DNA from: Streptosporangium nondiastaticum
Lineage (GTDB): Bacteria > Actinomycetota > Actinomycetes > Streptomycetales > Streptomycetaceae
Reading direction: 5' to 3'
DNA length: 64,000 nucleotides
NCBI RefSeq assembly: GCF_003011965.1
Contig: NZ_PXWG01000003.1
Coordinates: forward strand, 124,001-188,000
The notes under the pieces are model-generated. The model was not told the origin of the DNA. It saw only the letters and a program-made list of their open reading frames with translations, and ran no database searches. Position numbers and translations under genes: made by a program. Shown here one piece after another: positions 3,369 through 21,604 of the stretch; position 1 is the first letter of the stretch; every line of letters begins with the position of its first letter.

Positions 3369-3419
3369 GACGCCGGGGCGGGGGAGAGCGCTGCTCGCCT
3401 TTCCCCCCGCCCCGGCGTC
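3369..3419. terminator. Bidirectional terminator-like hairpin between PP2C gene and drmB
   Basis: A perfect 16-bp stem (3369-3384 pairing with 3404-3419; GACGCCGGGGCGGGGG and its complement) with a 19-base loop sits between two convergent stops (3333 and 3432). It marks the left transcriptional boundary of the accessory island. Confidence 0.8.
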
Positions 3420-3431
3420 ACCACCCGGTGC

Positions 3432-5297
3432 TCACGGAGCGAGCAGGTGGGAGAAGAAACCGATCGACGCGTCCTCCGGGGTACCGACAAGGAGGGCCCG
3501 GTCGAGCAGGCCGTTGTTGTGTTCGCAGCTGGTCTCCGGGAGCATCACACAGGCGTGGCAGGCGGCCATGTTGGTGCCGCCCGCACCGGAGGTCTCGGTC
3601 TCGACGCAGAGCGGGTCGGCGGAGCACCACTCGGCTCGGTGGACGGCCGATCCCACGGCCTGTGCGAGACGGTCGGTTTCACCCTGCGCGACCAGACCGC
3701 CGAGGCTACCGGCCGAGTCGCTGGTGGCCGTGTAGATGAGCACGCCCGCCATCTCGTCACTCGAGTAGATCCGCTCGCGCAGCGAAGCCGCCGGATAGCC
3801 GGAGTCCAGGCTCCACTCATTGATCATCACGTGGGCGAGGGTGTGCAGCAGAACCATGCGCGGGGTGGCAGGAGAGGCCGGGACTCGGCCGGGGTCGGAT
3901 GCCCGCTCGGCGAGAACCCGCTGGTGCCGATGGCGCATGAGCTCCACGCGGGCGGCGACGGCAGGCAATTCGGCCCAGGTGTCGACCCTCTCCTCGTCCA
4001 GCCGGAGGAAGACTCCTTCGCCGTGGACCTCCATGGCGGGCAGCCAGTCGGTCGGGGCGAGGGAAAGATCCGCTTCATGGCCCTCGGAGGAGCTCTCGGG
4101 ATCGATGACCCGGGTGAAGGCCTTGAGGGCACGGACCTCGCGGAGCTTCTTCACAAGCATGGGTGTGAGCAGGCCGAGGCCCGTCAGCGGCTCGGCATCG
4201 CCGGCCGGAGGCTCGCAGACGAACTGCTCGGTGTGAGAGCCGGAGTCCTCCGGGTTACCGGCACACAGCCGCTCGTACTCCAGTTCACGCAGGGCCTGGT
4301 AGCGCCGCTCCTGATCGAGTTCGACACTGTCCTCACCGTCGGAATCCTCGGCCTCCATGGCACTGAGCAGCTCCATGACCTGCTCGGGGCTTATCGGGGA
4401 GGGCACCCCTTCGAAGATGTACTGCAGATGAATCCGGATCTCGGCAAGGGAGGAACAAGAGCGGAGCTTGTCCCAGTGCTTGTCCAGGGCGTGCACCTTG
4501 GTGTCGCTCCACGGCGGGATGGACAGAGCCGAGCGGAGCACCGGCTGCCACACCGAGGAGGAACCGCGCTGGAGAGTCCGGGGCGGCTGTGAGCAGATGA
4601 GGTCGGGAGCGTCCTTCAACCACGGGCGCTTGCCCTCGCAGCGAATGTTCAGGTCCTTGAGGGCGCCGCGCCGGAAAGAGCCTTCCATGGACACCTCGGG
4701 CACTCCGCAGGAGCACGAGAGCACGACCGAACGGAGCGAGGAGGTGCGGCCCGAAGAGCGCAGGCTCATCCGACCGCCGCAGAAACCGGCCTCGCCGTCC
4801 CCGCGTCGACCCCGGTGCAGCCACTTCCAGTACGGGAAGTCGGCGATGTGCCCGTCCTCGCAGGCCACCACGAAACGGGAGGGCACCAGGGCCTCCGCGC
4901 ACTCGGCGCACTCGTTGCGTCCGGGCGGTGAGTTGAACTTCCGCACGTGATCCAGCGCGTGGCACTCGGGGCAGTGGTGCCACAACGGGAAGCGGCGCAC
5001 CCGGATGCCGTCGCGGCTGTCGTCGCCTGAGGCGGGCGGGAGGCGGAATCGGCTCACGCCCAGCACCCGGGCGAGACGCGGCTCGTGGATCACCGGGGCT
5101 TCGTCGTGGGGCCACTGCCGCTCGGCGTCGTCGATGCCGGAGACGATGAACGACTCCTGCTCCACGGCGATCAGCGCCCCCACGCCGTACGTGGTGACGG
5201 CCTGGGCGCGGCGGACCGCGCCACGGCGGGGCAGGGTCCGGGTCGGTGCGGCGGAGCCGTGGGTCCCGCGCCTACGGCGGGGAGGGGGCGGGGTCAT
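3432..5297 (-). CDS. drmB: DrmB-like protein with C-terminal DUF1998 (DISARM-type)
   Basis: A 621-residue protein. Near residues 105-130 it has a zinc-knuckle-like pair (CPEC...CAEC) followed by VACEDGHIADFPYWKWLH. The last third has the DUF1998 pattern (MVLLHTLAHVMINEWSLDSGYPAASLRERIY), ending in a Cys cluster (CSADPLC, CHAC, C). DrmB proteins bind DrmA and act with it in DISARM phage defence. The start at 5297 overlaps the DrmA stop as ATGA, so the pair is translationally coupled; an in-frame extension to 5474 inside drmA is rejected. It is the last gene of the minus-strand arm. DUF1998 also occurs in other helicase-associated systems, so assignment as DrmB rests on its tight pairing with the DrmA-like helicase. 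Confidence 0.85.
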   Translation of the reverse strand: MTPPPPRRRRGTHGSAAPTRTLPRRGAVRRAQAVTTYGVGALIAVEQESFIVSGIDDAERQWPHDEAPVIHEPRLARVLGVSRFRLPPASGDDSRDGIRVRRFPLWHHCPECHALDHVRKFNSPPGRNECAECAEALVPSRFVVACEDGHIADFPYWKWLHRGRRGDGEAGFCGGRMSLRSSGRTSSLRSVVLSCSCGVPEVSMEGSFRRGALKDLNIRCEGKRPWLKDAPDLICSQPPRTLQRGSSSVWQPVLRSALSIPPWSDTKVHALDKHWDKLRSCSSLAEIRIHLQYIFEGVPSPISPEQVMELLSAMEAEDSDGEDSVELDQERRYQALRELEYERLCAGNPEDSGSHTEQFVCEPPAGDAEPLTGLGLLTPMLVKKLREVRALKAFTRVIDPESSSEGHEADLSLAPTDWLPAMEVHGEGVFLRLDEERVDTWAELPAVAARVELMRHRHQRVLAERASDPGRVPASPATPRMVLLHTLAHVMINEWSLDSGYPAASLRERIYSSDEMAGVLIYTATSDSAGSLGGLVAQGETDRLAQAVGSAVHRAEWCSADPLCVETETSGAGGTNMAACHACVMLPETSCEHNNGLLDRALLVGTPEDASIGFFSHLLAP

Positions 5298-8200
5298 CGG
5301 GATGCCTCCATGAACAGGGCTGACTCGGCGTCGACGTCGCGGAGGGACCACAGGGTCTCCCACGCCTCGGCGTCCTCCAGGGCGTCGTTGTAGGGCTTGA
5401 GCAGCGAGGGGGCACGGCGTCCGCGCTTCGGCTCGTAGTGCAGCCCACCTTGCGCCTCGGCCTCCTCGTACCACCAGTCGACGAATTCGTCGAAGGCCGC
5501 GGCCACGTGGGAGACCTCCTTGGCTGCGGTCTCCTCCGGGGAGACCCTCTCGACCCGTTCGAGGATCAGAGGGCGGATCTTCTCCCTCAGCTCGTCCCGG
5601 AAGAGGTCGATGTCGCCCGCGGCCTCGTCGGCGCGCGCGGCGGGGATCAGGATGCGGGCCAGGGCGACGATCACCGCGTGAAGGCCGCGGTCACGGGCAC
5701 GAGCCGAGAAGGGGGTCACCGAGGTGGACTCGACCTCTCGGTAGAGGGCGGAGTGGAAGTGCTGGAAGTTCTCGTAGTGGGAGCGGTCCCGGGAGCGGCC
5801 CGCGTTGAGCATCACCGCCACCAGGCCGGGGTGAGCACGGCCGACGCGGCTGGTGGCCTGGATGTACTCCGCGGTGGTCTGCGGTTGGCCCATGACGGCC
5901 ATCAGGCCGAGCCGGTCCACGTCCACGCCGACGGCGATCATGTTCGTGGCCAGGAGGACGTCCACCACGTCACCGCCCGGCAGCCGCCGCTCGATCTGCT
6001 TGAGGCGGGCCGGAATGTCACTGGCGTCGACCCGGCTGGTCAGCTCGGAGTAGTTGTCGACGGAACGGGGCTCGCAGCCGTCGCGGTCCGCCAGGTGTTC
6101 CAGGTAGGCCACGACGTCGTCATGGACCTGGAGTTCGGCGGCGGACAACAGGCGCAGGCTGTTGAAGTAGCCGACCAGTGTCCAGTACGCGTCGCGCACC
6201 TCGTGAGCGGTTTCGGCCCGCATCGCCTGGTGGAGCAGGGTGGCGTAGGTGCGGATCAACAGAGTGGACTGACTGGTGCCGGGGGCGAGCAGGCCCACGT
6301 AGCGGCGGGACGCCTTCTCACCGGCCGGGGTCTCCACGGCGAACCAGGAGTCGCGGGCGTCCAGACCGGCGGGCGGGAACTGACGCACCTCACGGGCGAA
6401 CAGAGCCCTGCCCTGGTCGGCGGCACGGCGGATGGTCGCGGTCGAGGCGATCACCTTGGGACGGTCGGCGAGCACGTCGACGGCCGTCTCGTACAGACCT
6501 GTCAAGGTGCCCAGCGGTCCGGAGATCAGGTGCAGCTCATCCTGCACGATCAGCTCCGGGGGCGGGGTGGAGTCCTGACGGTCCCGGTTGAAGAGGGCGG
6601 CGATCTGCGCGCGCCACGGCATCGAGGCGAACTTGTCGACGGTAGCGATCACCAGGGTGGGCCGTGCCCGGTACACGGTCTCGTCGATCAGGTGCACCGG
6701 CAGCCCGCCGGAGAACGCGCAGCCCGTGCCGGGACAGCGCACGTCCATCCGGACGGCCTCCTCGTCGACCGAGTAGTGGTGGGCGTCGAGGGCGGTACCG
6801 CACCACGGGCAGGCGTGCAGCTGGACCGGGTTCTCCCTCTGGAGGACCTTCCCCGAGCGGGCGGCGCCGAGCTGCCGAGAGGCGACCTCCAAAGTGTTCG
6901 GGGTGGCGGAACGACCCACCCACATGCCGAGGGAAATCTCCTCGTGCCCCAGCTCGGCGGGGTTCCGGCGGCGCATCTGCTCCATGGCGCAGATCAGGAT
7001 CGCGGCACGCTCGAACTGCTGGAGGGTGAGCAGGCGCAGCGTGTAGCGCATCAGGACGGTGACACCGCCGCCCGCAGCGCCGAGCCGTCTCCGGCGCAGG
7101 AAGGTGGTCAACGCGATCAGCCCCAGATAGGCCTCGGTCTTGCCGCCGCCGGTGGGAAACCACAGCAGGTCCGACACGCCTCGGTCGGGGTGGTGCGGGT
7201 CGTCCACCCCGGCCAGGCACAACAGCACGAAGGCGATCTGGAACGGACGCCAGCGCGCGGAGGCAGGTTCCGGTTCCCCCCTCCGACCGTCCTTGACCCA
7301 GGCGCTGCGGGCCCTCTGGGTTGCCATCGCCCGGTTGGCCAGGCGGAACGCCCACATCAGGTCGGGCTTGTCACGCAGCAGCTCGATGCCCTTCCGGATC
7401 CGCCCCAGGGCCTCTTCGCAAGCCTTGACCTGGATCGACGCGGGCCCTTCGTACGAGGTGCCGGCGAGTGCAGCGGCTTCGGCGAGCTTCCGTCCGATCC
7501 ACTGCTCATAGCCCGCGGCCAGCCCTTCCAGGGCGGCGATCACCTCGGCGTCCGGGGCCTCGGCGAGACCGAGCATGGTGAGGGCGCGATCGTCGATCTC
7601 CGGGTTGGAGTCGGTGAGCAACACCTCGAACGTGGGTATGAACTCGGTGCGCACCTCTGCCACGCCGGCGCGCTCCACATCAGTGAGACCGACCGGAGGC
7701 GGGGCCCAATCCCACACGGCTGCGCATCCATGACCAGTAGCGAAGGTGGGAGCGTGTCGGTGCAGCAGTCGGCCGGTCTCCAGCTCCGGATCCACGGCGG
7801 ACAGGGCGGCGGGGCGCTCCACGAAGGCACTCGCCCCGTCGGCGGCGCGGACTGTCAGCCCGGCCTGAAACAGGGCGAAGGCGTCCTGGAGCTCCCGCTC
7901 CCCCACCTTCCGTACGTTGACCAGGGTCACCGTGACGGTGACCGTGCCGGTCTCCGCCGACGGGCGGCGCACGTGCACCTCCAGCCGGACCGTGCCGTCG
8001 ACCAGGTCGCGTGAGGCACCGCGCCCCGGGTACGTCACGTCGACCGTGGTGTCGGGCAGGTCCAGCTCCACCCGACGCCAACGTTCTCGTTGTTCGGAGG
8101 TCGTGCGGGCCTCGCTGCGGCGGGCCGAGACCTTGCGGCCCTCGGCGTCCTCCGGCTCGTACACGGCGGCGCGCGAGGATACCACGATCCGCCGGCACGC

Positions 8201-8557
8201 GGCGAGGTCGACGGCGAAGGTCAGACCGACGGAGGAGGGGCGCCTGTCGCCGGCGTTGGGACGCTCGCCCGCCGGCGCGGATTCGTCGAGACCGTCCGCT
8301 CCGGTCACCGGCTCCTCGTCGAGGCCCTCTTCCTCGGCGGCGTCCTCCTGAAGGCGAAGGCCGGTCTCGGCGTCCGCCGGGCGCGGGAAGAGCACGCCCA
8401 TGGCGTAGCGGGTGATCGGGGCGTCCTGGTCGAGCACCTCGGCACGGTCCTCGGCGCAGGCGTCGGCGTCGGGGCCCAGAAGCTCGCGGCGGAGTCGGGC
8501 CACCAGGTCCTCACGGACCTCGTAGTGCGCGGCGTGCCGCCCTGCGTGGATGGTCAT
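5294..8557 (-). CDS. drmA: DrmA-like SF2 helicase (DISARM-type)
   Basis: A 1087-residue SF2 helicase. Walker A FPTGGGKTEAYLG lies near residue 465, a Walker-B-like VQDELHLISGPLG near 665, SATIRRA near 705 and the arginine-finger motif QATSRVGRAHPGL near 895. The DELH box and QATSRVGR are as expected for DrmA/DpdJ-like helicases. The first 400 residues contain beta-rich sequence of unknown role. ATG 8557 overlaps the UvrD-like gene stop (ATGA), and its own stop overlaps the drmB start the same way. DrmA is established as the DNA-engaging helicase of DISARM; action here on foreign unmethylated DNA is inferred. Confidence 0.88.
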   Translation of the reverse strand: MTIHAGRHAAHYEVREDLVARLRRELLGPDADACAEDRAEVLDQDAPITRYAMGVLFPRPADAETGLRLQEDAAEEEGLDEEPVTGADGLDESAPAGERPNAGDRRPSSVGLTFAVDLAACRRIVVSSRAAVYEPEDAEGRKVSARRSEARTTSEQRERWRRVELDLPDTTVDVTYPGRGASRDLVDGTVRLEVHVRRPSAETGTVTVTVTLVNVRKVGERELQDAFALFQAGLTVRAADGASAFVERPAALSAVDPELETGRLLHRHAPTFATGHGCAAVWDWAPPPVGLTDVERAGVAEVRTEFIPTFEVLLTDSNPEIDDRALTMLGLAEAPDAEVIAALEGLAAGYEQWIGRKLAEAAALAGTSYEGPASIQVKACEEALGRIRKGIELLRDKPDLMWAFRLANRAMATQRARSAWVKDGRRGEPEPASARWRPFQIAFVLLCLAGVDDPHHPDRGVSDLLWFPTGGGKTEAYLGLIALTTFLRRRRLGAAGGGVTVLMRYTLRLLTLQQFERAAILICAMEQMRRRNPAELGHEEISLGMWVGRSATPNTLEVASRQLGAARSGKVLQRENPVQLHACPWCGTALDAHHYSVDEEAVRMDVRCPGTGCAFSGGLPVHLIDETVYRARPTLVIATVDKFASMPWRAQIAALFNRDRQDSTPPPELIVQDELHLISGPLGTLTGLYETAVDVLADRPKVIASTATIRRAADQGRALFAREVRQFPPAGLDARDSWFAVETPAGEKASRRYVGLLAPGTSQSTLLIRTYATLLHQAMRAETAHEVRDAYWTLVGYFNSLRLLSAAELQVHDDVVAYLEHLADRDGCEPRSVDNYSELTSRVDASDIPARLKQIERRLPGGDVVDVLLATNMIAVGVDVDRLGLMAVMGQPQTTAEYIQATSRVGRAHPGLVAVMLNAGRSRDRSHYENFQHFHSALYREVESTSVTPFSARARDRGLHAVIVALARILIPAARADEAAGDIDLFRDELREKIRPLILERVERVSPEETAAKEVSHVAAAFDEFVDWWYEEAEAQGGLHYEPKRGRRAPSLLKPYNDALEDAEAWETLWSLRDVDAESALFMEASR

Positions 8558-10470
8558 TCCTGCTCCTCCCCCGCCCCGGCGGACCGCCGGAACCGTCCGA
8601 TTCCGCTGATGCGCGGGGCGATCCACACCCCGCGCTCGCCCAGGCCCGCGTTGACCCCGGCGGCGGTACTGCCCGCGACCGACTCCAGGCAGTCGATCCG
8701 CAAGCCGGAGATCTCTCCGGGCCATTGGACCTCCCAGGTCGTACCGACCTTCAGGAGGGCGTACAAGTCGCTCCTGAAACCCTCGGAGGCGTCGCCGATC
8801 TCCCTCCCCTCGTGCAGCACCGCGTATCGAGGGCTCTGTTCGGGACCCATGGGGAGGGTGTCGCGCAGCCGGAACGTCACCGTGTCCCCCGGCCGCACCC
8901 GCTCCAGCAGGTACGACTGAACACCGGATGCGTCGTCGAGGGCGCCGGCCGGTTCCTGGTTGCAGACGTCGCCCGCTCGCACCTCGACGCCGTCGCGCCG
9001 CCACTTGTGGCGAGGGTTCGGGACTCCCCGGTACCAGCGCCCGGTCGGCTTGTGCTTGAGAACGGTCACCGTGTCCGGCGCGGCGACGCGATACAGATCC
9101 TCCCGGGCCCTGGTCATCGCCACGTAGAGGGCACGCGCCTCGGCGGGCACGTCGAGTTCGTCGTCACGACGACGCAGCTCGGTCACGGTGGGCGGGGTGA
9201 GCAGCACCACCCGATCGAACTCCAGGCCCTTGGAGCGGTGCACCGTGGACACGATGAGCGGGGCCGGTTCCGGGTCGGCCAGCTCGTCCGGGAAGCGGCG
9301 CTCCGCCACCAGTCCGCGCAGCCGCGCGACATCGAGCGTGCCCCGACCGGTGCCGCGCGCCGCCGCCCGCAGGGCTCGCCACACCCGGTCCGGGTCGATG
9401 CCGTCGGAGATCGGCATCCCCCCGAGGAGTTCGCGCAGCCGCTGTTCGGTGAGCACGGCGGCTTCGGTGCGACGCAGCAGCTCGGCGACCCAGGACGGCA
9501 CGGGCCGGTCCTGGAGCGAGCGTCGCAGGGCGTGCGGTACGCCCTGGGTGTGCAGCAGCTCCGAAACCAGCAGGGCTTGCCGGTTGTCGCGGGCCAGGAT
9601 CGCGCAGGTGCCGGGGAAGGACCGCAGCGAGTCCAGGGTGAACGGGTCGGTGAGCGAACCCATGTCGGGCTGGTCGAGCAGCAGCTCGCGAAGCTCCCCG
9701 TGGAGCCGTTCGGCCGCCGCGTCCGCTCCCTCAGGGGCGCTGCCGATGCCCTGTACGGCCTGTCCAAGAGGGAGCGCGGCGCGCGCCTCGGGGGTGCGGG
9801 CACGGAAGTTCCGCGTCAGCCGCAACTCCACCAGGTCGTCGGAGTAGGAGGCGCGCACCCAGCGGAGGAAGAGGTCCGTCCGGTCGGCGTACTCCTCCGG
9901 GTCCTTGATCTGGAAGTCGTAGATCGCCTGGGCGGAGTCGCCGACCAGGGTGAACCCGCAGGAGTCCTGCAGTTGGTCGAGCAGCGACTCCACCATCTCC
10001 CGGCGCACGCCCACCAGGTCCTGCACCTCGTCGACGATCACGTGCGCCGGCGGCCCGGCCTCCAAGGACTCCAGCGCGCCCTTCTCGATCGCTTCGGTGG
10101 CTGCCCGGATGCGCTCGTCGAAGGTGAGCGCGGACCACTCGCCGTCCGGGTGTACCTGCACCAGCACGGAGTGCGCCCAGGAGTCGAAGGTCTGCACGCG
10201 CACCCGCCGGGCGTGCTCGCCGTGCCGGGCGATGCGGTCCCGCAGCTCGCGCACAGCGGCGCGGGAGAAGCTGAGGACCAGCAGCTCGGAGGCTTCCAAG
10301 GCTTCGTCGGGGTCGACGTGTCCCACGAGCGCGTCCATGCGACGCACCAACGTGTGGGTCTTGCCCGCGCCCGCCCCGGCGGTGACCAACAGGCGAGTGT
10401 CCCAGGGCTGGTCCACGACGGCCTGCTGCTCCGCTGTGAGGACGCGGTCGTCCGCGGAGGAGAAGGTCAC
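8554..10470 (-). CDS. UvrD/Rep-like SF1 helicase with extra C-terminal domain
   Basis: A 638-residue SF1A helicase: Walker A TAGAGAGKTHTL (residues about 28-40), HVIVDEVQDLVG near 145, GDSAQAIYDFQ near 178, LTRNFRA, VSTVHRSKGLEFDRVVLL near 410 and YVAMTRAREDLYRVA near 450. After motif VI about 170 residues remain, rich in beta-like sequence (RPGDTVTFRLRDTLPMG, TTWEVQWPGEISGLRIDCL) and not recognised. No PD-(D/E)XK nuclease motif is visible. GTG 10470 is chosen because it gives a GTGA overlap with the upstream stop, matching the rest of the operon; GTG 10482 is an alternative. It lies between the GHKL-helicase and drmA, so it probably works in the same complex or pathway. Confidence 0.85.
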   Translation of the reverse strand: MTFSSADDRVLTAEQQAVVDQPWDTRLLVTAGAGAGKTHTLVRRMDALVGHVDPDEALEASELLVLSFSRAAVRELRDRIARHGEHARRVRVQTFDSWAHSVLVQVHPDGEWSALTFDERIRAATEAIEKGALESLEAGPPAHVIVDEVQDLVGVRREMVESLLDQLQDSCGFTLVGDSAQAIYDFQIKDPEEYADRTDLFLRWVRASYSDDLVELRLTRNFRARTPEARAALPLGQAVQGIGSAPEGADAAAERLHGELRELLLDQPDMGSLTDPFTLDSLRSFPGTCAILARDNRQALLVSELLHTQGVPHALRRSLQDRPVPSWVAELLRRTEAAVLTEQRLRELLGGMPISDGIDPDRVWRALRAAARGTGRGTLDVARLRGLVAERRFPDELADPEPAPLIVSTVHRSKGLEFDRVVLLTPPTVTELRRRDDELDVPAEARALYVAMTRAREDLYRVAAPDTVTVLKHKPTGRWYRGVPNPRHKWRRDGVEVRAGDVCNQEPAGALDDASGVQSYLLERVRPGDTVTFRLRDTLPMGPEQSPRYAVLHEGREIGDASEGFRSDLYALLKVGTTWEVQWPGEISGLRIDCLESVAGSTAAGVNAGLGERGVWIAPRISGIGRFRRSAGAGEEQE

Positions 10471-13400
10471 TTCTTGCTCCACAGGTGCTCGAACTTGGTG
10501 AAGGCCAGGGCGGTGTCGAAGTTCCGGATGGTGTCGCGGACGTTGAGGATCAGGCAGGTCTCCTTGCCGCCGTTGCGGGGACCGCGCAGACCGCGTCCGA
10601 TCATCTGCTGGTACACGTTCGGGCTGTAGACGGGCCGGGCGACGACGACCGCGCGGGTCGCGGGGGCGTCGAAGCCTTGGGTGAGGACGCCGTAGTTGGT
10701 GAGCACCCGCACCTTGCCGTCACGAAAATCGTCGACACGGGCACGCCGGTCGCTGTCGGACGTGGTGGAGTCCACCGAGGAGGCGGAGATCCCGTGGTCC
10801 TTCAGCCGGGCCGCCAGGTACTTGGCGTGCTCCACCGAGGTGGCGAACACCAGCACCGGCCAGTCCTCGGGCATCGCCGCGATCTCCGAGACGATGCGAC
10901 GACTGCGGTCATGATCGTCGGCCAGACGCTGCTCGGCAGCTTTGGACAGCAGGCTGAACTGCGTGGCGCTCTCCCGCTCCTCGCGGGACAGCTCGATGGT
11001 GCCGCCGGTCAGCTCCCGGTGCCGGACCTGCGCCAGGACCCCGAGCTCCTGGAGGTACCCGTAGGCGTCGTCGGACGGGAAGACGCCCTCGTCCAGCCGG
11101 CGCGCGCCGAAACGGCTGACCAGGCGGCGGGTCTCTTCCTCATTGTGGCCGCGGAACGGAGTGGCGGTGAGGCCCAGCAGGTGCCGGTCGGTCCGGTGCT
11201 GGGTGAGGCCGAGGAGCCCCAGGAGCTCGGTGTAGAGACGGCTGGTGGCCACGTGTGCCTCATCCACCACGACCAACGCCGCGCCCCGCAGCCATTCGTA
11301 CCTCTCCGTGTCCAGGCACTTCTTGAGCTTGGCGTCGGTGGCCACGACGAGCTGCGGCCCGTCGAGGACGGGGGCCGCCTCGTTCGAGCTCCACAGCCGG
11401 TTGATCGTCAGGCGAACCTGTGCACCGGCCTTTTCCCACACGAACCTCCAACTCTGGACGGCCTGTTCACACAGCTCCTCGGTCTGGGCGATCCACAGGA
11501 TCGGGCCCTTGAGGTCACCGGCCTGCTTCACCCACCGGATGACGGCTTCGGCTGTGACGCGCGTCTTGCCGGCGCCGGTGGGCAGCGACAGCATGGCGCG
11601 CTGCGGAGTCAGTCGGTCCAACATCTCGAAGATGTTCAGGGCGAGTCGTTCCTGGTAGTCGTGCAGGCGTGGAAAGTCACGGGGGCCGTCCACCGTCAGG
11701 CTCTGTTCGAGACTCGGGGCTCGGTAGCCTGCGAAGGGAGCGGGTAGACCGAGATCCGCGACGAAGGAGACCGCCGCCGAGCCACCGGTGTAGGACGGTG
11801 GAGCGCTCGGAAAACGCTCCTGGATGTCGCGGGCATGGGTCTTGAGAACGGTGTCGCCGTGCGCGTTGAACGCCATCTGCGCGACCCGACGCCCGGTGGG
11901 CTCCTGCCCGCCCAGCTCCTGGCGCTCGGTCTCCATCAGTCCGGCGGGCAACCGGCCGCGCAGGGCCTCCGCGCCGATCAGCAGCTCCAGTTTGGCCGTC
12001 ACGTCCTCGGCCTCGCGGATCGCCTTCAGCGCGGACCGCACCTTCTCGTCCTGCTCCTGGCGGGTCTGGGCGTCCAACACCGCGCGGCACCCGGCCTCGC
12101 CCATGCGCAGGCCCAGCTCGCGGTCCACGGCCCGGAGCGTCCCGAGCCGGTCCGCCGAGTCCAGGACCTTGATCACATTGCCCTGGCGGGCGCTCTCCAG
12201 GGACTTCGCCCGCGCGCCGTGCGGGGTACGGACGACCTCTTCCAGCGTGGAGCAGCGCAGCAAGGAGTACGTGTTGACGGAGGAACCCATCTTCTGACGC
12301 AGCGTCGGGAACTCCTCGGACAGCGGGACCGCCTCCACGTTCGACTCGTGCCGGGTCTCGCGGCTGACGACATCGTCGTGGCGCAGCATGCCCCATTGCT
12401 CGACCATGAGATCGGCGGACTCCCGGTCCGGCATCAGCAGCGCCGGCACCCGCTCGGCCCGCAGCGAACGGTACTCCTCCGGGTTCGCGGCGACCGCGAT
12501 CTCGCCGTCCTCCCGGGTGTCCCAGGCGTCGCCGATCCGACAGCGGGTCAGGGAGTCCTCGGGAAAGTCGATCTCCAATCGGGTCAGCAGGGCGTAGGTG
12601 GAGCCGACGAAGACGTCGTCCTCGCTGCCCTGGAGCTTCTTCAGCAGTTGCTCCCACTGTTCGGGGCGGACGTTCTCCACGCTGCCCGCGAGCCTCAGCT
12701 TGCGGGCCTTCTCCACGCCGACCTCCTCAGCCACCGGGAGAACGTCACGGTAGGCCGCGAGCTGCGGCCCCACGGCCTCCTTGAGCGTCTTGACGCCCTG
12801 AGAAGTCTCGACCCGGCCGTGCCGGGAGAGCATCCAGCGGATCGGGGACGGCACCGCTCGGCGGGTGGAGACCTGCGCCCCGATCTGGAGCGTCCAGTTC
12901 TCGATCAGCCCTTCCTCGGGGAGCACCCGCAGGAACGCGGCGCGAGCTTCTTCGGAGAGCCGGGGAAGGAGGTGCAGGGGCCCGCCGACGGCCGCCCCCT
13001 CGACCCTGGTACGGGCCAAGGTCGGTCGGCTCGCCCGGTCGTCGAGCGTGCTGCAGTACAGCGCGAGCATGGCCTCGCGGTACTCCTCGAACCAAGGCTC
13101 GCCCTCCGGCCGGCGACCGGCGGTCGGACGGTCCCGCAGGCCCAGTTCGCGGAAGAAGCCCGCGTCGTCCGAGTGGAACCGCATGTCCACCGCGACCCCG
13201 GCATCCCTCTGCGCAGTGACGACGGCACCGGGCAGCATGCAGTCCCGCAGGGCTCGGAACTGCTCGTCCGCCGTACGCACCATGAGCGTGTCCATCGGCG
13301 CGGCCACACGCTTGATCACCTCATGTCCCACCACGGAAGCGCCCGCCTGGTGGAACAGCTCCCAGAACCGGGTCCACTCGCGCGGGCCGTAGGAATCGAG

Positions 13401-15227: not shown

Positions 15228-15283
15228 TAATGGTTCCAGTTCAGGACGAAGAGACGGGTCGGACGAAGAAGCGGCAGCCGATG

Positions 15284-15293
15284 CTGTCAACAG
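15284..15293. promoter_or_regulatory. CTGTCAACAG motif near 5' end of the helicase arm (candidate operator)
   Basis: A full copy of the motif (CTGT-CA-ACAG, ends inverted) lies 57 bases upstream of the GHKL-helicase start and overlaps the stop codon of the small upstream gene. Degenerate copies lie before the divergent HTH-GHKL gene. Binding by the HTH domain of that gene is inferred. Confidence 0.4.
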
Positions 15294-15427
15294 GGGACCT
15301 GCATGCCATGGTCGATACCGCCCATGAGGCGGAGGTAGACCTCCAGCGTCCGAGGGTCGTCGGCAAGCCGGTCGTACAGCGCTACGACGGTACGCATGCG
15401 GTCGAGCGGGGACTTCTTCGATGACAC
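15287..15427 (-). CDS. Small hypothetical protein at the head of the helicase arm
   Basis: A 46-residue reading frame (VSSKKSPLDRMRTVVALYDR...) ends 60 bases before the GHKL-helicase start on the same strand. Its codons have about 83% G/C at the third position, as in genuine genes here. The bias falls to about 57% upstream of 15427, so GTG 15427 is preferred over GTG 15508 (73 residues). The sequence looks like one amphipathic helical unit (DRMRTVVALYDRLADDPRTL), possibly a small regulator or subunit. No family is recognised. It could be a chance reading frame; expression data would settle it. Confidence 0.5.
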   Translation of the reverse strand: MSSKKSPLDRMRTVVALYDRLADDPRTLEVYLRLMGGIDHGMQVPC

Positions 15428-15959
15428 CGAGGTACCTGCGCTTTCGCTTTCGTGGAGATGTTCACGAGGGAATGGTGCGAGGTGGTGCGGGGAGGAAACC
15501 GGGCCCACAGGATTAGCGGAAGGGTTCCGGTGCGCGGGCGAAGAAGGGGCTTCCTCCGATGTGCGAGGCGGTGCGTGCAGATCTTCCGGGCGGCACGGGC
15601 GTATCCGCCCCCTGCCTTCCGACTCGTCGCGGATACCCGAGGCAGGGAAGAAGGCACAACTGTGGCCCAGAAAAGCGCAGTTACCCGAGCAATGCCCGGG
15701 GCTGCCGTGATCAACTCAAGCACGATGCCTCATCGGCACGCAAGGGTTCTCGGATCACCCGCAGAACCAACACGCGGGAACTTTCGGATGATTCAGGAAC
15801 AAATAGGGGCGGACCTTCAAGTTCCACTTTCAGGGCACCCAACGAACCGCTCAAGGCGGACACCCCCCTGTCAAAGGACTGTTGACATGCAACCGCGAGC
15901 GTCAACAGCGGTGGGGTACCGTGGCTCTCACCAGTGGTCCGAGTGGAAGTAGGTGGGAC
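15428..15959. other. Divergent control region of the defence-like island
   Basis: About 530 bp separate the small minus-strand gene from the HTH-GHKL gene. Codon bias is weak in all frames and base composition is slightly less GC-rich, so it is probably noncoding. It holds the clustered CTGTCAACAG-like motifs at 15868-15908 and must contain promoters for both arms. No tRNA, CRISPR-type repeat or insertion sequence was seen. A 113-residue minus-strand frame (15382-15723) has no bias and is judged spurious. Confidence 0.6.
15868..15908. promoter_or_regulatory. Three phased CTGTCAACAG-like sites upstream of the HTH-GHKL gene
   Basis: Three degenerate copies lie at 15868-15877 (CTGTCAAAGG), 15879-15888 (CTGTTGACAT) and 15899-15908 (GCGTCAACAG). 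Spacings are 11 and 20 bases, close to one and two helical turns. Within this block, CTGTTGAC (15879-15886) and GTCAACAG (15901-15908) are a perfect 8-bp inverted repeat, and TGTCAA/TTGACA (15869-15887) is a second one. The position, 12-52 bases before the possible start codons, is typical of an autoregulatory operator for an XRE-type protein. Binding itself is inferred. Confidence 0.55.
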
Positions 15960-18104
15960 GTGGAGGCGGCTGAAGACTTCGGCCCCTGGCTGGCACGCCA
16001 GCTCAGGAACGCCGGAAAGACCCAGACCGACCTGGCGGAGGAGCTGGGCATGACCCGAGCCGCCGTCTCGGCCTGGATCGTGGGCCGCTCGGTCCCCCGG
16101 GACGAGACCATCCGGCGCATCGCAGAGGTACTCAAGACCGACCTGGAGACCATTCACACCCGCAGCGTGGATGCCCAGGCGGGCCTGCCCGTCTCCTGGT
16201 ACCACCGGCCGGCCCATGCCGACGGCGGCCGGGAGTACGGCAACGCCGCAGCGTTCGCGTTCGAAGCCGACGTCTCGGTCCTCGCCCGCGAAGCCACCCA
16301 GAACAGCCTCGACGCGCGGCTCGACCGCACCAAGGCCGTCCGGGTCCGTTACACGCTGCACGAACTCACCGGCGAGGCCCTCGCCCGCTTCCGCGAGGCC
16401 GTCGACTGGGAGCAACTGCTCCCGCACTACCAGGCGCTCACCTCCGACCACGGCAAGCAGGGCAAGGTCTCCCGGACGATCGCAGCGGGACTGCGTGACA
16501 TGTATCAGCGTGACCGGCTGGTGCTGCTCCGCGTGGACGACTACAACGCCACGGGCCTGACCGGCGGCGACTACGACGACGGACTCTTCGCCGCCGTCGT
16601 ACGTCGACAGCTCGACAGTCACAAGACGGACGCCGGTGCAGGCGGCTCCTACGGCCTCGGGAAAGCCACCCTTTGGGCCACCAGTCGACTCGGGCTCGTA
16701 CTGATCAACTCCACTCTCTCCGAACCCCATGAGGGTCGCACCGAGCGCCGCCTGATCGGCCGGCTCGACCTTCCCTGGCACGAGGTCGACGGCAGGCGGT
16801 TCGCGGGCCCGGCCTGGTTCGGACGTCCTGACCCGGACGCCGCCTCCACCGACGTGGCCCGCTCGTGGTGGGCCGACGAGGCGACCGTGGAGAAGCTCTA
16901 CCTCACCCGCGAGAGCGCGGCCCCCGGCACTTCCTTCCTCATTGTCGGTGCCCACGACGTCGCCAGCCTGGCGCCCGTCACGGGATCCGTCGACGAGGGG
17001 GAGGGCGCCGAGGACGACGACTCCGTCCACCGCATGCACGCTCGACTCGTCGACGCCCTCGGCCGTAACTTCTGGGCCGCCATGACCAGCGGCGGCGATC
17101 ACGAGCCGCACCTCAAAGCGTCTGTCTGCACCTACCGCAACGGCGAGGTGCTCATCGCCGAGGAGCGCGTGGACCCGGCCGTCACCCAGCCCTCCCGCAC
17201 CCGAGCTCTGCGTGCGTTCCTGGAGGGCGACACCGTCGACCGTCTCACCACTCCCGGTCAGGTCGCCCGCGCCACCGTGCGGTTGAACGTGCCCCTGCAC
17301 GGCGGCCAGGTTCGTGGCGGTGTGCCGCACGAGGCAGTACTCCTGGTCACTCATGCCGAGGACGCCGACGGCCCTCCCAACCGGCTGGTCTCCATGCGAG
17401 GCAATCGCATGACCGTGAAGGACAGCGCCGTCACCAATGTCCCGATCGGCACCAACCCGTTCCAGGCCGTCCTCCTCGCCGGCAGAGCAGCGGGCCGGGA
17501 CGCCCCCGGTGCCGAGGCCGCCGAGGAGTTCCTTCGCGCCTCCGAACCGCCCGAGCACAACAAGTGGGGCCGGACCGAGGAACTCCGCCTCACCTATTCG
17601 CCCTCCGCATACCGACGCATCGCCGCTCTGACCACCGCTGCCAACAATTCGGTGCGCGACCTGGTCGCCGTTCCCCGGGCCAAACGCCGCAGCGGCGGAG
17701 AGGCCAGGATCGCCGGTCGGCTCAAGGTGGGCGGCAGCACGAAGAAGGCGCGCCCCACCAGAGCCGCGGCACTGCCCGAGCTGGACAACGTGGATGCGCT
17801 GATCGACACGTCCGGAGCCTGGTCGGTCACCGTCGACCTGCGGGTGTCGGCAGGCGTCGACACGGACCGTCCGGTCACTCCCGTCGCCAAGTTCGACGTA
17901 CGCTCGGGCCCCCGCCCCGCCGCGTTTTGGAAAGAACTCGTCGCCGTCAGCGGCTGCGAAGTCGTCGACGGGGCCCTGCACCTGACCCCGGGCAGCCGCA
18001 AGGCCGTCTTCCGCGGCGTTACCGACGTGTCCCGTCACCCGGTCCGGGCTCAACTCTCCGGGCTCGTGGTGGAACTCCGTATCGGAAAGGGGGAGCAGGC
18101 GTGA
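15960..18104 (+). CDS. HTH (XRE)-GHKL ATPase, MORC/MutL-like, first gene of the plus-strand arm
   Basis: A 714-residue protein. Residues about 8-62 form an XRE/Cro helix-turn-helix (KTQTDLAEELGMTRAAVSAW). A GHKL ATPase follows, with N-box LAREATQNSLDAR near 110 and glycine-rich lid GAGGSYGLGKATLW near 230. The remaining 450 residues are not recognised. GHKL ATPases of this sort (MORC/MutL-like) are known from restriction-type loci with C5 methyltransferases. Fusion to a DNA-binding HTH suggests it also regulates its own locus, supported by inverted repeats just upstream. GTG 15960 is chosen as it immediately precedes the HTH; GTG 15921 is possible. Its stop overlaps the next start as GTGA. 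Confidence 0.8.
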   Translation: MEAAEDFGPWLARQLRNAGKTQTDLAEELGMTRAAVSAWIVGRSVPRDETIRRIAEVLKTDLETIHTRSVDAQAGLPVSWYHRPAHADGGREYGNAAAFAFEADVSVLAREATQNSLDARLDRTKAVRVRYTLHELTGEALARFREAVDWEQLLPHYQALTSDHGKQGKVSRTIAAGLRDMYQRDRLVLLRVDDYNATGLTGGDYDDGLFAAVVRRQLDSHKTDAGAGGSYGLGKATLWATSRLGLVLINSTLSEPHEGRTERRLIGRLDLPWHEVDGRRFAGPAWFGRPDPDAASTDVARSWWADEATVEKLYLTRESAAPGTSFLIVGAHDVASLAPVTGSVDEGEGAEDDDSVHRMHARLVDALGRNFWAAMTSGGDHEPHLKASVCTYRNGEVLIAEERVDPAVTQPSRTRALRAFLEGDTVDRLTTPGQVARATVRLNVPLHGGQVRGGVPHEAVLLVTHAEDADGPPNRLVSMRGNRMTVKDSAVTNVPIGTNPFQAVLLAGRAAGRDAPGAEAAEEFLRASEPPEHNKWGRTEELRLTYSPSAYRRIAALTTAANNSVRDLVAVPRAKRRSGGEARIAGRLKVGGSTKKARPTRAAALPELDNVDALIDTSGAWSVTVDLRVSAGVDTDRPVTPVAKFDVRSGPRPAAFWKELVAVSGCEVVDGALHLTPGSRKAVFRGVTDVSRHPVRAQLSGLVVELRIGKGEQA

Positions 18105-19105
18105 AGGTCTACCCCTACCGACGGCTCACCGGCAACGTGTCCTGGCGCGTCGAGAGCGCCCAGCTCAAGGTCGAGGGCGAGCCCTGGGAGGACGTGGAGA
18201 CCAAGTACGTCTCCACCGTCGAACGCGTCGTGGCCCTCGGCCCCGACGAGGACCGCCCCGACTGGAACCAGGCCCGGCTCCGCCTCTCCGCCGGCCTTCC
18301 GGCCAAGGCGGTGGACGCGGCAGGGCCCTGGCAGGACGTCAAGGTCATCGCCGTGCTCACCGAGCGCGCCACGAACTCCCGCACGGCCGTGGAATTGTCT
18401 CCGGTGTCCGACGACGGCCGCGAACGAACCGGCGAGCTGTACATCCACCGCTGCGACCTCCTCGACCGTGCCTCGCTCGCCGTCCACGTCGTCGCCACCG
18501 TGGACCACGTTCCCGGCCGGGTGATCGCCACCTCCGACGTGGAGTGGTTCGTCGACGTCATCGAGGCCGCGCCCTCGCTCGCCCGCGAACTCGACGTCAA
18601 GTTGATCGGTTTCGCCTCGGGGGCGAGCCGGCTCCAGCGCTTCAAGGATTCCCCGTGGCTGGTCGACACCACGGGACGGATCCCCGCCGTACGCGTCAAC
18701 ACCGACTTCGACGGGCTCGGCGATCTGGTCGGCGCGGACGGCGGCAACGGAGCGGAGAAGACCGTCCGGGAGCTCCTTCTCGCCCAGATGTGCTCGGAGG
18801 TATGGACCGCCGTCTTCCACTCCGCCGTCGGCGACCTGGAGATCGAGGAGGACGGTACCCCGCTGTTCCCGCACGGCTGGCAGGGCGAGGTGCTCCGGGA
18901 AATGCTCCCCGACATCTACCCGGATCGCGAGCCGGAGGGCGCTCTCCGCGAAGTCCACGCGGCTCGCACCGGAGCATCCGCCACCGGCTGGGGAGAGCTC
19001 CAGCCGCGCATCCACTTCGCCGCTTCCCGGCGCGCAGGCGTCCCCCGGACGCTCTCCACCACCATCCGCGACCTCGAACGCCTCACTCAGGGGAACGACG
19101 CATGA
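18101..19105 (+). CDS. Protein of unknown family in the defence-like locus
   Basis: A 334-residue protein with no motif I recognise. The first half is beta-rich (VKVYPYRRLTGNVSWRVESA, DVKVIAVLTERATNSRTAVE) and the second half mixed (TVRELLLAQMCSEVWTAVFH, GWQGEVLREMLPDIYPD). No HNH, PLD, GIY-YIG or clear PD-(D/E)XK signature is visible. The GTG start overlaps the stop of the GHKL gene, and its stop overlaps the next start (ATGA), so the three plus-strand genes form one coupled unit. Strict coupling to the ATPase suggests a partner subunit. A highly diverged nuclease cannot be excluded by eye. Confidence 0.75.
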   Translation: MKVYPYRRLTGNVSWRVESAQLKVEGEPWEDVETKYVSTVERVVALGPDEDRPDWNQARLRLSAGLPAKAVDAAGPWQDVKVIAVLTERATNSRTAVELSPVSDDGRERTGELYIHRCDLLDRASLAVHVVATVDHVPGRVIATSDVEWFVDVIEAAPSLARELDVKLIGFASGASRLQRFKDSPWLVDTTGRIPAVRVNTDFDGLGDLVGADGGNGAEKTVRELLLAQMCSEVWTAVFHSAVGDLEIEEDGTPLFPHGWQGEVLREMLPDIYPDREPEGALREVHAARTGASATGWGELQPRIHFAASRRAGVPRTLSTTIRDLERLTQGNDA

Positions 19106-20004
19106 CCGAGCGACCCAGCCACCTCCCGGAGCGTCTCGCTCTGCTCACCAACGCCGAGGCGGCGGAATTCCTCGTCGAAGGACTGCTCGCCGGCCGCGAG
19201 GACGTGCCGAGCATCAAACTCAACCAGGTCGCCGAGCCGCTGCCGCACGCCGACCGGCGCGGTGACCTTCGCCCGGTCCGGGACCTGGTCGAGGACGCCA
19301 TGGCGTACTGCCGGGACGGTGGGCTCAAGGCCACCCGGGCCGACGCCTGGCTCGCTCCCCGCCTGCACGCGGCCCTTCGACTCACCCGCCGCGAGGCAGC
19401 CGACACCGGCCTCTGGAACTACCTCGCGCTCGGTGTCGCGCCGGACTACGTGGTCTGGCGACACCTGCCGGAGCCCAAGGACGGCAAGGTCGCCAAAGTG
19501 GCGGCCGACCGCTTCAGAGGGCAGTACCACAAGCAGGCCTTCGCCCGCCTCTGGTGGGCGGCCGAGCTCTTCCGCGACGGCTCGGACTACGGCCCCGTGG
19601 TCACGGCCTGCAGCAACCAGGACATCCTCAACACCGCCCTGCGCATGTCCGTGATCAACCACCGGCCCACCGCCCAGGCGATCGTCCGGCTGGTGGCAAA
19701 GGGTGTGATCACCAGCGGCCGTGAGGTCAACGCCCTGGCCGGAGCCGTCAACGCCTCCGCCGCGACGCTGATGTACGACGTGATCGCTCCCGACACCGAA
19801 CGCGAGTCCCGTCCGCTGCTCGAGTGGATCGACGAGGCCGAGACGGCACGCCAGGTACCACGGCAGGATCTCCCGACCGGCCCTCACGAGGAACCGGCGC
19901 CGGAACCCTCTGTGAGCGTCCTGGTGAGCTACTTCGCCGACCTCTTCGCGGACGCGCCGGTCCGGGGACGGGACGACTTGGAAGCGGTCGAGGGGGAGGA
20001 CTGA
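19102..20004 (+). CDS. DUF6339-like protein of the defence-like locus
   Basis: A 300-residue mostly helical protein. Its central block (TGLWNYLALGVAPDYVVWRH, QAFARLWWAAELFRDGSDYG, NTALRMSVINHRPTAQAIVR) resembles what I recall of the DUF6339 family, which has no known activity; this is from memory and unverified. ATG 19102 overlaps the upstream stop. The acidic C-terminal tail (VRGRDDLEAVEGED) is encoded in a 76-bp stretch that also encodes the C-terminus of the convergent methyltransferase. A role with the GHKL ATPase is inferred from coupling alone. Confidence 0.7.
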   Translation: MTERPSHLPERLALLTNAEAAEFLVEGLLAGREDVPSIKLNQVAEPLPHADRRGDLRPVRDLVEDAMAYCRDGGLKATRADAWLAPRLHAALRLTRREAADTGLWNYLALGVAPDYVVWRHLPEPKDGKVAKVAADRFRGQYHKQAFARLWWAAELFRDGSDYGPVVTACSNQDILNTALRMSVINHRPTAQAIVRLVAKGVITSGREVNALAGAVNASAATLMYDVIAPDTERESRPLLEWIDEAETARQVPRQDLPTGPHEEPAPEPSVSVLVSYFADLFADAPVRGRDDLEAVEGED

Positions 20005-21284
20005 TCCTCGGGCTTCGGGCAGTCGGAACCACAACCGTCCGAAGCACCGCAGCCCTTCTTACGGAGAGTGGCGTAGTCCTCGCCCTCAGGGTCGAGCGTG
20101 ATCCAGTTCTCCCGCAGCCCTTCTTCCCGAGGAAGCGGGAGAGCGAGCGCCGCCGCGAGCACGTGCACACCGAACAGCGGTGGCACGGCATTGCCCACCT
20201 GCTGCGACCGGTCACCTCCCGACCAGGGGTAGTTGGGGGGGAAGGTCTGAAGGATGCCGGCCTCGCGGATGGTCAGGCGGTCCGGGTCGTGCGGGGTGCC
20301 GTCCGGGTGCCGGACAGCGTTGCGGGAGACCTTTCCGGTGACGGTGAACGAGGGTTGACGGTCAGTCCGGATGCCTCGCTTCTTCGGGTCACCACCACTG
20401 CCGTAGTTCGACTTGATCTCGAAAGGAGGCTTCCTGCTGAGCACCTCTCCCATCGAGACCCAGGCCTTGGGCGGCTCGTCGGCGCCCTCCTCCGTCGGCA
20501 ACGTCGACTGGACCTGTGCCACGGCCATGTCGTCGGGGCCGCCCTGCTTGGGTTTGCGCGAGTTGTAGATGTAGTGCGTCGGCTCGGGAAGCGGAGGGGT
20601 CCCATGCTCGTCGAGCCGTGCGATCAGGATCGTACGGCGGCGAGTCTGCGGCACGCCGTAGGCCTCGGTGTGCAGGGTCTTCACCTCGGCAACCTTGTAC
20701 GGCACCCGCGACCCGTCCGGGCGGGGCAGGCCCTTCTCCAGAGCGCTCTTGTAGACGTCCCAGAGAGCCTTGACCTGCGGCACCTGCTCCAGGACGATCA
20801 CGTCGAACGGTCGTCCCGCCCGGTTCGGGGAACCGAGAGCTTTGATCGCGTACCGGAGGGGCTCCAGGACCAGAGCCGTTCTGGGGTCGCCTCCCTTTGC
20901 CTCCAGCGCTGCCAGCCGGTCGTCGATCTTCTTCTCGTCGGCACCATCCACCAACGCGTGAATGAGCTCTTCGACCTGGACCAGGGCCTTACGGCCGGCG
21001 CCGCTGCCCGCTACCGAGTACGTCTGACACGGCGGACCACCGGCCAGCACATTCAGATCCTGCGGCAGGTCCTCGAACCTGTCCCGACGCACAGCACTGA
21101 CATCCGCATGCCAGGTCGGGAGCCCCGCCTTGTAACGTGTCTCACAGGCACCCCGGTCCCACTCGATCCCGAGTGACGGAACGCCGAGCATGTGCGCGGC
21201 CACGTCAAGACCGCCCGGACCGGCAAAGAGATCCAGAATACGAGGATCCCCAAGGAATCGAGAGTCTGCGTCCGAGCTGGTCAT
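19929..21284 (-). CDS. DNA (cytosine-5-)-methyltransferase of the island
   Basis: A 451-residue C5-MTase. Motif I DLFAGPGGLD (residues 18-27), catalytic PCQ loop AGGPPCQTYS with Cys86, motif VI VLEQVPQV (Glu166, with EQV in place of the usual ENV), motif VIII QTRRRTILIARL near 213, motif IX LTIREAGILQTFPPNY near 338 and motif X QQVGNAVPPLFG near 361 are all present, so it should be active. The segment between PCQ and EQV is unusually long. ATG 21284 is chosen because motif I follows directly. A Cys-rich tail (GCGASDGCGSDC) ends the protein. It probably marks host DNA as self for the island's helicases (inference from DISARM and GHKL restriction loci). Confidence 0.92.
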   Translation of the reverse strand: MTSSDADSRFLGDPRILDLFAGPGGLDVAAHMLGVPSLGIEWDRGACETRYKAGLPTWHADVSAVRRDRFEDLPQDLNVLAGGPPCQTYSVAGSGAGRKALVQVEELIHALVDGADEKKIDDRLAALEAKGGDPRTALVLEPLRYAIKALGSPNRAGRPFDVIVLEQVPQVKALWDVYKSALEKGLPRPDGSRVPYKVAEVKTLHTEAYGVPQTRRRTILIARLDEHGTPPLPEPTHYIYNSRKPKQGGPDDMAVAQVQSTLPTEEGADEPPKAWVSMGEVLSRKPPFEIKSNYGSGGDPKKRGIRTDRQPSFTVTGKVSRNAVRHPDGTPHDPDRLTIREAGILQTFPPNYPWSGGDRSQQVGNAVPPLFGVHVLAAALALPLPREEGLRENWITLDPEGEDYATLRKKGCGASDGCGSDCPKPEDQSSPSTASKSSRPRTGASAKRSAK

Positions 21285-21477
21285 GTGGCGGAAGTTTAGC
21301 CTGCGGCGACCTGCACGCCCCGCACCGGCCACCCCTCTCATCCGGCGCCCCCCCACGAGGTCCCGGGTGACCGTCAACCGCATCAAAGAGTGGACAGAGC
21401 GTTCCACATCCGACTCCGCTCCGCCCAGGTGGAGCTGCCCTCAGCACGACACTCGCGAGCTGCCGGACGAACAACAC

Positions 21478-21523: not shown

Positions 21524-21530
21524 CGTACCG

Positions 21531-21604
<74 letters not shown>

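Follow-up and report, generated by a model that had tools for sequence, protein, structure and literature searches.

Can an eight-gene block that carries parts of two kinds of antiviral locus be regarded as one defence system? The question is raised by positions 3432-21284 of the window, i.e., the whole stretch of 64,000 nucleotides from Streptosporangium nondiastaticum that was analysed (contig NZ_PXWG01000003.1, positions 124,001 to 188,000 of the forward strand). The (-) arm of the block contains the genes for SacsSF2, a UvrD-type helicase, DrmA and DrmB, in this order, and the (+) arm those for an HTH-GHKL protein, MID and a DUF6339 protein; a C5 cytosine DNA methyltransferase gene completes the set. 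The names SacsSF2, for a GHKL-SF2 fusion, and MID, for an orphan protein, were coined in the present analysis, in which the source genome (an assembly of 8.03 Mb in 431 contigs) was set beside a genus sample of 199 genomes, taken as Streptomyces, and a wider sample of 396 genomes of the phylum. The block is a real, conserved unit in the genus and, judging by its sequence, probably a phage-defence system. The reading that we prefer, at a probability of roughly 0.45, is that of a two-module methylation-guided DNA-interference system, in which a DISARM-related helicase cassette would be joined to a MORC-type restriction module.

Two proteins of the (-) arm belong to families known from DISARM, as an initial annotation of this DNA had proposed. 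DrmB (3432-5297), the OB/DUF1998-MZB partner of DrmA, reaches 469.3 bits with the NCBIfam model NF038324 (DrmB_fam; cut-off 240), contains the MZB domain of Pfam and matches a chain of the solved Serratia DrmAB structure over most of its length (7S9V_B, E 6e-80). DrmA (5294-8557), an SF2 helicase of the YprA family, passes NF038325 (DISARM_DrmAS) with 1012.7 bits versus a cut-off of 950, is matched by the PADLOC DrmA model with an E value of 8e-246, and corresponds over most of its length to the other Serratia chain (7S9V_A, E 5e-176). Pattern searches recovered three helicase motifs (I, II and VI) from each of the 45 DrmA proteins, that of the window included; the pattern used for motif III was too strict, fitting 2 of the 45, and the window protein reads STATI there. 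Residues 60-106 of the window DrmA form an acidic stretch of 47 residues that HMMER places close to the trigger loop of the Serratia protein, and acidic stretches of 43-47 residues were detected by pattern in 23 of the 45 proteins.

The remaining two genes of this arm encode further helicases. The UvrD-type SF1 helicase (8554-10482) scores above the Pfam cut-off for UvrD-helicase (PF00580/PF13361), and is GajB-like, with a best E value of 2e-25 for GajB of PADLOC; motif I was found in 41 of 43 such proteins and motifs II, III, V and VI in every one of them. SacsSF2 (10467-15290) combines an N-terminal sacsin-type GHKL ATPase, recognised by NCBIfam NF047352 with 66.6 bits (cut-off 50), with a C-terminal SF2 helicase in which ResIII and Helicase_C exceed their Pfam cut-offs; the fusion matches TmtA of PADLOC (E 3e-39). 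The helicase half is RadD-like, the RadD model giving 107 bits (E 8e-31) and that of XPB 33.5 bits, both under their cut-offs, and a profile search of the PDB returned the RadD structure 6JDE as the best match, with sacsin (5V47) for the N-terminus.

On the opposite strand, the HTH-GHKL ATPase (15882-18104, with a likely start at GTG 15960) carries an HTH_3 domain over the cut-off (E 5.5e-12) and resembles PDC-M33A of PADLOC (E 5.7e-23). Its relatives keep the patterns expected of GHKL ATPases almost without exception (N-box 38/38, G1 37/38, G2 38/38). None of Pfam, PADLOC and NCBIfam assigns a family to the frame of MID (18101-19105), a protein of 334 aa. Its AlphaFold model (pLDDT 84.3) predicts an Ig-like beta sandwich followed by a helical C-terminus, and Foldseek returned six PDB matches with E <= 0.001, mostly Unc119 beta sandwiches; the best VIA-align match, a domain of beta-galactosidase (Z 7.0, rmsd 2.9, 104 aligned), is a middling one, and these comparisons hardly probe the helical C-terminus. 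Proteins occupying the same slot between GHKL and DUF6339 genes in two other loci (L100 and L101) are not claimed as homologs of MID, because hhalign gave no support for it. The helical DUF6339 protein (19102-20004) is matched by PF19866 (E 1.7e-12) and PDC-M33C (E 4.1e-8). Foldseek found no PDB match at E <= 0.001 for its AlphaFold model (pLDDT 78.5), for which the best VIA-align match is again middling (Z 6.0, rmsd 3.2, 65 aligned), and its strongly conserved polar residues correspond to no recognised motif. Finally, the C5 methyltransferase (19929-21284, on the (-) strand) is identified by PF00145 (DNA_methylase, E 1e-24) and the PADLOC model MTase_II (258.7 bits), and 37 of 37 relatives contain the pattern for motif IV. 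Motif VI, which in C5 methyltransferases is usually ENV, reads EQV in all 37, and ENV occurs anywhere in just two of them. Family models and motifs thus agree with the three helicases, two GHKL ATPases and one C5 methyltransferase that had been read from the letters alone.

The open reading frame coordinates of the island were likewise confirmed. Its genes had been described as coupled by 4-base overlaps into two divergent arms, which holds for both arms and for four of the five junctions within them; the SacsSF2 and UvrD-type genes overlap by 16 bases, and the methyltransferase gene stands outside both arms, as a third transcription unit that converges on the DUF6339 gene, with a 76-base tail overlap between the two. 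The TTG at 15290 is a doubtful start for SacsSF2, GTG 15227 being a possible alternative. Between the arms lies the divergent promoter region (15291-15881), poorly conserved in DNA comparisons. Four frames on the opposite strands, at 15711-18053(-), 18050-19015(-), 19087-20034(-) and 19824-21176(+), were discarded as shadows of the real genes because none matched a family in Pfam or PADLOC.

The boundaries of the block mark it as a unit. Scanning of a genome collection with SacsSF2 yielded 11 loci, all from Streptomyces, in every one of which DNA similarity to the window begins at 3369-3477, with none to the left of 3369. The right edge falls at 21041-21311 in nine of them; in one of the other two (L015) similarity extends to 21687, across a tRNA gene, and in the second (L016) it ends at 19689, short of the methyltransferase. 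The protein-coding flanks of the window are shared by none of the 11 loci, among which the divergent intergenic region is weakly conserved. In the 199 genomes of the genus, 32 near-full-length SacsSF2 genes were found at 48% identity or more, one of them with two stops (G143), in addition to one in two pieces (G171) and two further ones at 33% identity (G172 and G097). HTH-GHKL, MID and DUF6339 occupy the same divergent position in 42 of 45 loci, the exceptions being G095, G172 and G097; the 45 represent 44 distinct loci, since L014 and L054, whose rows are identical in the HTH-GHKL tree, were counted as one genome. This adjacency count bears out one conserved unit in the genus, and a split into two unrelated loci is occasional rather than consistent. 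The methyltransferase gene lies directly beside the DUF6339 gene in 39 of the 42 loci that carry both arms. With gene starts picked by script, 4-base overlaps recur at UvrD/DrmA (38/41 loci), MID/DUF6339 (36/40), DrmA/DrmB (37/44) and GHKL/MID (23/37), and the SacsSF2/UvrD overlap is of 4 bases in 20 and of 16 bases in 15 of 40 loci. Moreover, SacsSF2 and MID, with 33 and 44 carriers among the 199 genomes, co-occur in 32 (hypergeometric 6.5e-26, uncorrected for relatedness). As in the initial annotation, a defence function for this unit is an inference.

Two of the SacsSF2 carriers deserve a separate mention. At G143:C12:156711-161522, SacsSF2 contains two in-frame stops and the remainder of the locus is largely kept; at G171:C1:4472253-4476987 it lies in pieces and the DUF6339 match is also split, in a locus otherwise largely kept.

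How, then, does the block relate to DISARM? Types I and II of this system reportedly go back to Ofir in 2018. As in DISARM, DrmA and DrmB exceed curated cut-offs and are homologous to the solved DrmAB, a DNA methyltransferase gene adjoins them and the layout is that of an operon; unlike DISARM, the block has SacsSF2, a UvrD-type helicase and the GHKL/MID/DUF6339 arm. The comparison with DISARM class II made earlier did not survive, no DrmC, DrmE or DrmMII-like protein being found. The PLD nuclease DrmC is absent from the PADLOC and NCBIfam lists for the proteins of the locus. Its model NF038319 passes the cut-off in 24 of the 199 genomes, a set that overlaps with the 33 carriers of a close SacsSF2 in G029 alone, where DrmC lies on another contig; the source genome has only a match under the cut-off (E 1.6e-6). 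DrmE does not appear in the PADLOC lists for the eight proteins, which hold the best 25 of 45 families for the UvrD-type protein and the best 25 of 53 for the methyltransferase. The methyltransferase reaches 63.2 bits at best with DrmMII among the matches listed, versus 258.7 with the general type II model. For type I, DrmD gives only a 17-bit PADLOC match inside the SacsSF2 helicase, and DrmMI is not among the PADLOC matches listed for the locus proteins. The block falls outside both types as defined by PADLOC, which, according to the part of its description consulted (PMC9252829), requires DrmC plus either DrmD/DrmMI or DrmE/DrmMII.

A tree of DrmA points in the same direction. It comprises 40 rows, for which 42 SacsSF2-type DrmA proteins were thinned to 15 for diversity and DrmC-bearing loci were fetched from 16 of the 24 genomes passing the DrmC cut-off; the program warns of long branches, and its deep order is not to be read. 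The SacsSF2-type proteins form one group (99/98), joined by that of G095 (100/99) and then by that of G468 (99/98), and the proteins from DrmC-bearing loci stand apart in a group of their own (100/100). A further group (100/100), apart from the SacsSF2-type proteins, unites G172 and G097 with DrmA proteins of a NERD-type cassette described below, so that the DrmA of these two genomes does not belong with that of the window, despite the SacsSF2 present there.

MID serves as a marker of the GHKL arm and occurs in 44 of the 199 genomes, 32 with and 12 without a close SacsSF2. In five of those 12 (G073, G088, G090, G150 and G165), the GHKL arm and a C5 methyltransferase stand beside another DrmA/DrmB cassette, whose DrmA and DrmB are 37-39% and 32-33% identical and which has two SF1 helicases at its flanks, one of them with a NERD domain. 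In the other seven (G025, G042, G054, G062, G092, G099 and G151), they stand beside a Z1-domain helicase. These types were defined by family scans of L097 and L090, the remaining loci being assigned to them by tblastn. In L088, the sole fetched stretch that reaches well past Z1, a DUF4420 gene of the PD-(D/E)XK kind follows. Within the fetched stretches, tblastn found no match to Z1, DUF4420 or the NERD helicase in SacsSF2 loci with a GHKL arm. On an HTH-GHKL tree of 55 rows, well-supported branches force four changes of the SacsSF2 label (shuffled mean 11.1), L079, of SacsSF2 type, adjoining Z1-type rows and L061 adjoining the NERD type. The arm has therefore been exchanged between effectors several times, even if the SacsSF2 label is nonetheless clearly clustered on the tree. 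The arms are separable, and the term composite, once applied to the island, is apt in that there are two exchangeable modules, and the set is not an obligate one, as the 12 of 44 genomes with the GHKL arm and without this cassette illustrate. All this suggests that whole modules are exchanged when bacteria put their defences together.

G095, G172, G097 and G370 have the helicase cassette, or some version of it, and no GHKL arm. Among the 396 phylum genomes, SacsSF2 is full-length in G000, G095, G468 and G370. G370, from another family, keeps the window's order SacsSF2-UvrD-DrmA-DrmB between a C5 methyltransferase and a NERD helicase; in G172 and G097, a NERD-SF1 helicase, DrmA and DrmB come after SacsSF2. 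In G468, from a third family, UvrD-DrmA-DrmB lie at one end of a defence island and SacsSF2 at the far end, with Z1-GHKL-DUF6339-C5 methyltransferase in the middle. On the basis of G370, G468 and G172/G097, the core consists of SacsSF2, DrmA/DrmB and some SF1 helicase, usually with a C5 methyltransferase, and the GHKL arm is the usual companion of this recurring core within the genus. At rather less than even odds, we would put forward that SacsSF2-UvrD-DrmA-DrmB may be a third DISARM-related class in actinobacteria, working under an interchangeable MORC-type GHKL sensor, a single module that would serve at least three effector cassettes (SacsSF2-DrmAB, NERD-DrmAB and Z1). If so, methylation-guided immunity would have a general plug-in architecture, possibly one that restricts without an encoded nuclease.

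The G468 island spans about 40 kb (contig C3, approximately 2.4-42.4 kb; L125 1-16300, L100 and L124), and all of its listed genes lie on one strand. It also contains a run of SNF2, type-IIG, YprA and GajB-like genes in the order of ARMADA II, as given in the available part of a recent preprint (Bell 2025, PMC12458937).

A mechanism can be proposed by analogy with better known relatives. From what was available of the structural work on DISARM (Bravo 2022), DrmAB is autoinhibited by a loop of DrmA and opened by 5′ overhangs, which it binds, and DrmC appears to be non-essential. In the block, DrmAB would load wherever unprotected DNA, from a phage or a plasmid, exposes a 5′ single strand, after which DrmAB, the SF1 helicase and the RadD-like SF2 helicase might unwind and strip the DNA, blocking replication and exposing it to a host nuclease. 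Since no nuclease was recognised, either such an enzyme or a domain of unknown fold would finish the DNA. The C5 methyltransferase would mark self, probably through cytosine methylation. By analogy with MORC-type restriction (in the portion consulted of Iyer 2008, PMC2292703), the HTH-GHKL/MID/DUF6339 trio might be an ATP-switch sensor or licensing module that senses DNA or its methylation state and gates the helicase module, and the HTH domain may in addition control the divergent promoters. Complex formation, the methylation self mark, DNA loading, gating, host-nuclease use and phage protection are all steps that we infer.

Several observations weigh against this methylation-guided, two-module system, and part of them favor a different one, in which SacsSF2-UvrD-DrmAB, as a DISARM-like system, and the GHKL arm, as a MORC-type restriction module, sit side by side, uncoupled. 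The exchange of arms implies that neither strictly needs the other, which makes two independent systems possible, and either arm is indeed found alone, the GHKL arm beside other cassettes (12 of 44 genomes) and the helicase arm or a relative of it in the four genomes named above. The four label changes on the HTH-GHKL tree and the dispersal of the same gene kinds over 40 kb among other defence genes in G468 agree with this alternative. We consider it less likely than the coupled system, given that the GHKL arm accompanies 32 of the 33 close SacsSF2 genes, that the fetched loci share the divergent layout and sharp outer boundaries, and that five of the 12 GHKL-arm loci lacking SacsSF2 carry another DrmA/DrmB cassette. 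Also on the side of one system, pairwise distances of genes from the two arms correlate with r 0.88-0.96, values from which host relatedness was not removed, across 27 loci that have complete copies of the eight genes (the window among them, out of 45 plus the window), and the lowest correlations, of 0.77-0.89, involve the methyltransferase. The gene of this enzyme varies more than any other of the set (mean pairwise identity 0.545), strict patterns for motifs VIII and X fit 21 and 27 of 37 sequences, and its gene is off the usual place in L019 (a weaker match beyond DrmB) and L076 (a fragment match only, also on the DrmB side), and about 2 kb away, as a partial match, in L079. To these points must be added that Pfam, PADLOC and NCBIfam scans named no nuclease domain in the eight proteins, and that the order of motor action and the role of the GHKL arm are guesses.

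The GHKL arm could instead be chiefly a transcriptional controller, sensing infection or DNA stress and activating the helicase arm via the divergent promoters. An N-terminal HTH_3 domain fused to a GHKL ATPase and the divergent arrangement would suit such a role, as would three GTCAACA/TGTTGAC sites that flank the divergent promoter region (15285-15292 and 15869-15907), one of them overlapping the doubtful TTG start of SacsSF2. Three sites in 733 intergenic bases compare with 0.06 expected for a motif that was chosen post hoc, and motifs of this type are present in only 10 of 43 loci; the case for GTCAACA as an operator is weak. Since, in addition, the distant GHKL protein of L100 has no Pfam HTH match and three conserved proteins exceed the needs of a repressor, a mainly regulatory arm seems improbable. 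Still less likely is a DNA-repair or stress locus built from RadD-, UvrD- and YprA/MrfA-type helicases. RadD-like and UvrD-like motors are present, and YprA-family relatives include repair helicases in the text available of the survey of this family (PMC12458937). Against such a function stand the sporadic spread of the block, with a close SacsSF2 in 33 of 199 genomes and unshared flanks in all 11 loci, the scores of DrmAB above DISARM cut-offs and the variability of the C5 methyltransferase. A degenerate or non-functional island, which the interrupted SacsSF2 genes of G143 and G171 might suggest, has the least to recommend it, as the other full-length SacsSF2 genes listed are free of stops and the motifs are intact in nearly all loci.

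Regarding defence systems already described, close counterparts also include MORC/paraMORC loci and the PADLOC candidate PDC-M33, with which the block shares a GHKL ATPase (PDC-M33A), DUF6339 (PDC-M33C) and a C5 methyltransferase. MORC operons bring together a GHKL ATPase, an SF2 helicase, an RE-fold nuclease and a cytosine methyltransferase, as far as the consulted part of that study goes (Iyer 2008, PMC2292703). The SacsSF2 loci differ in that their fetched stretches contain neither a Z1 helicase nor a DUF4420 PD-(D/E)XK protein. No Z1 was found in the window proteins with Pfam, nor by tblastn with a Z1 protein of the genus in the fetched SacsSF2 loci of the genus; by analogy, SacsSF2, UvrD and DrmA may take over its helicase work. 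For the Rad25-like SF2 helicase of Iyer's first kind of operon, the nearest candidate is SacsSF2, with only sub-cut-off RadD and XPB matches, on the divergent arm.

The YprA-family systems ARMADA, BRIGADE and TALON (Bell 2025 preprint, PMC12458937, in part) resemble the block in having a core helicase of this family, and ARMADA II in having a GajB-like UvrD, and differ from it in that the helicase and DUF1998 parts are split here, as in DISARM. Neither a BrxHII-like helicase nor a PglX-like methyltransferase is among the PADLOC matches listed for the locus, and the terms GHKL and sacsin do not occur in the main text of that survey. CglI/NgoAVII, a restriction system studied biochemically, pairs a methyltransferase with a Z1-domain ATPase in the portion seen of its description (PMC4267653), and by description this is also the kind of helicase in the Z1 loci with a GHKL arm; unlike the window block, it has three genes, a PLD-B3 nuclease and no GHKL protein. 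Its methyltransferase is of the C5 type. In VcSduA, a GHKL-Shedu (paraMORC3) nuclease, a GHKL ATPase has been proposed, as here, as the controller of DNA-targeting defence; it differs, in the part of the report at hand (PMC12137116), in being a single protein with its own nuclease. Gabija is echoed only in the GajB-like matches of the UvrD-type protein, with no GajA among the PADLOC matches listed. The component families are known; in line with the earlier statement that no described system was known to have this exact set, no published name for their combination appeared among the papers listed in the literature searched (including PMC8011034, PMC13118837, PMC12926258 and PMC10952713, partly in excerpt, and mostly without subscription papers), which is not proof that none exists.

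The block links DISARM and MORC-type cytosine restriction, which are usually treated apart, through a shared exchangeable module that is present in about one fifth of the genus sample (44/199). The occurrence of closely related GHKL proteins with different effectors provides a natural experiment on the contribution of the GHKL module, and a DrmAB system without DrmC bears on how DISARM disposes of DNA.

Just past the methyltransferase start lies a tRNA-Pro(GGG) gene (21530-21604), no 12-base stretch of which recurs in the rest of the window as a possible attachment repeat. Near the locus, a scan of 55 loci, which in many cases stop shortly past the methyltransferase, showed tRNA-Pro genes in L015 and L078 (both GGG) and L094 (CGG). 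With no attachment repeat in the window and tRNA-Pro in 3 of 55 loci, a tRNA-borne island is not supported. As for plasmids, a single partial SacsSF2 match of 30% identity was found on an Arthrobacter plasmid, and none for MID.

In G095, the divergent slot beside SacsSF2 is occupied by a frame of 496 aa (L080:12723-14210(+)) without a Pfam or PADLOC match, in which an EVE-like part and a stretch resembling PD-(D/E)XK may be discerned by eye. C5 methyltransferase genes also occur on the DrmB side of the locus, as a second copy in L017 (21970-22974, 49% identity to that of the window) and as the sole one matched in L019 (22702-23670, 47% identity).

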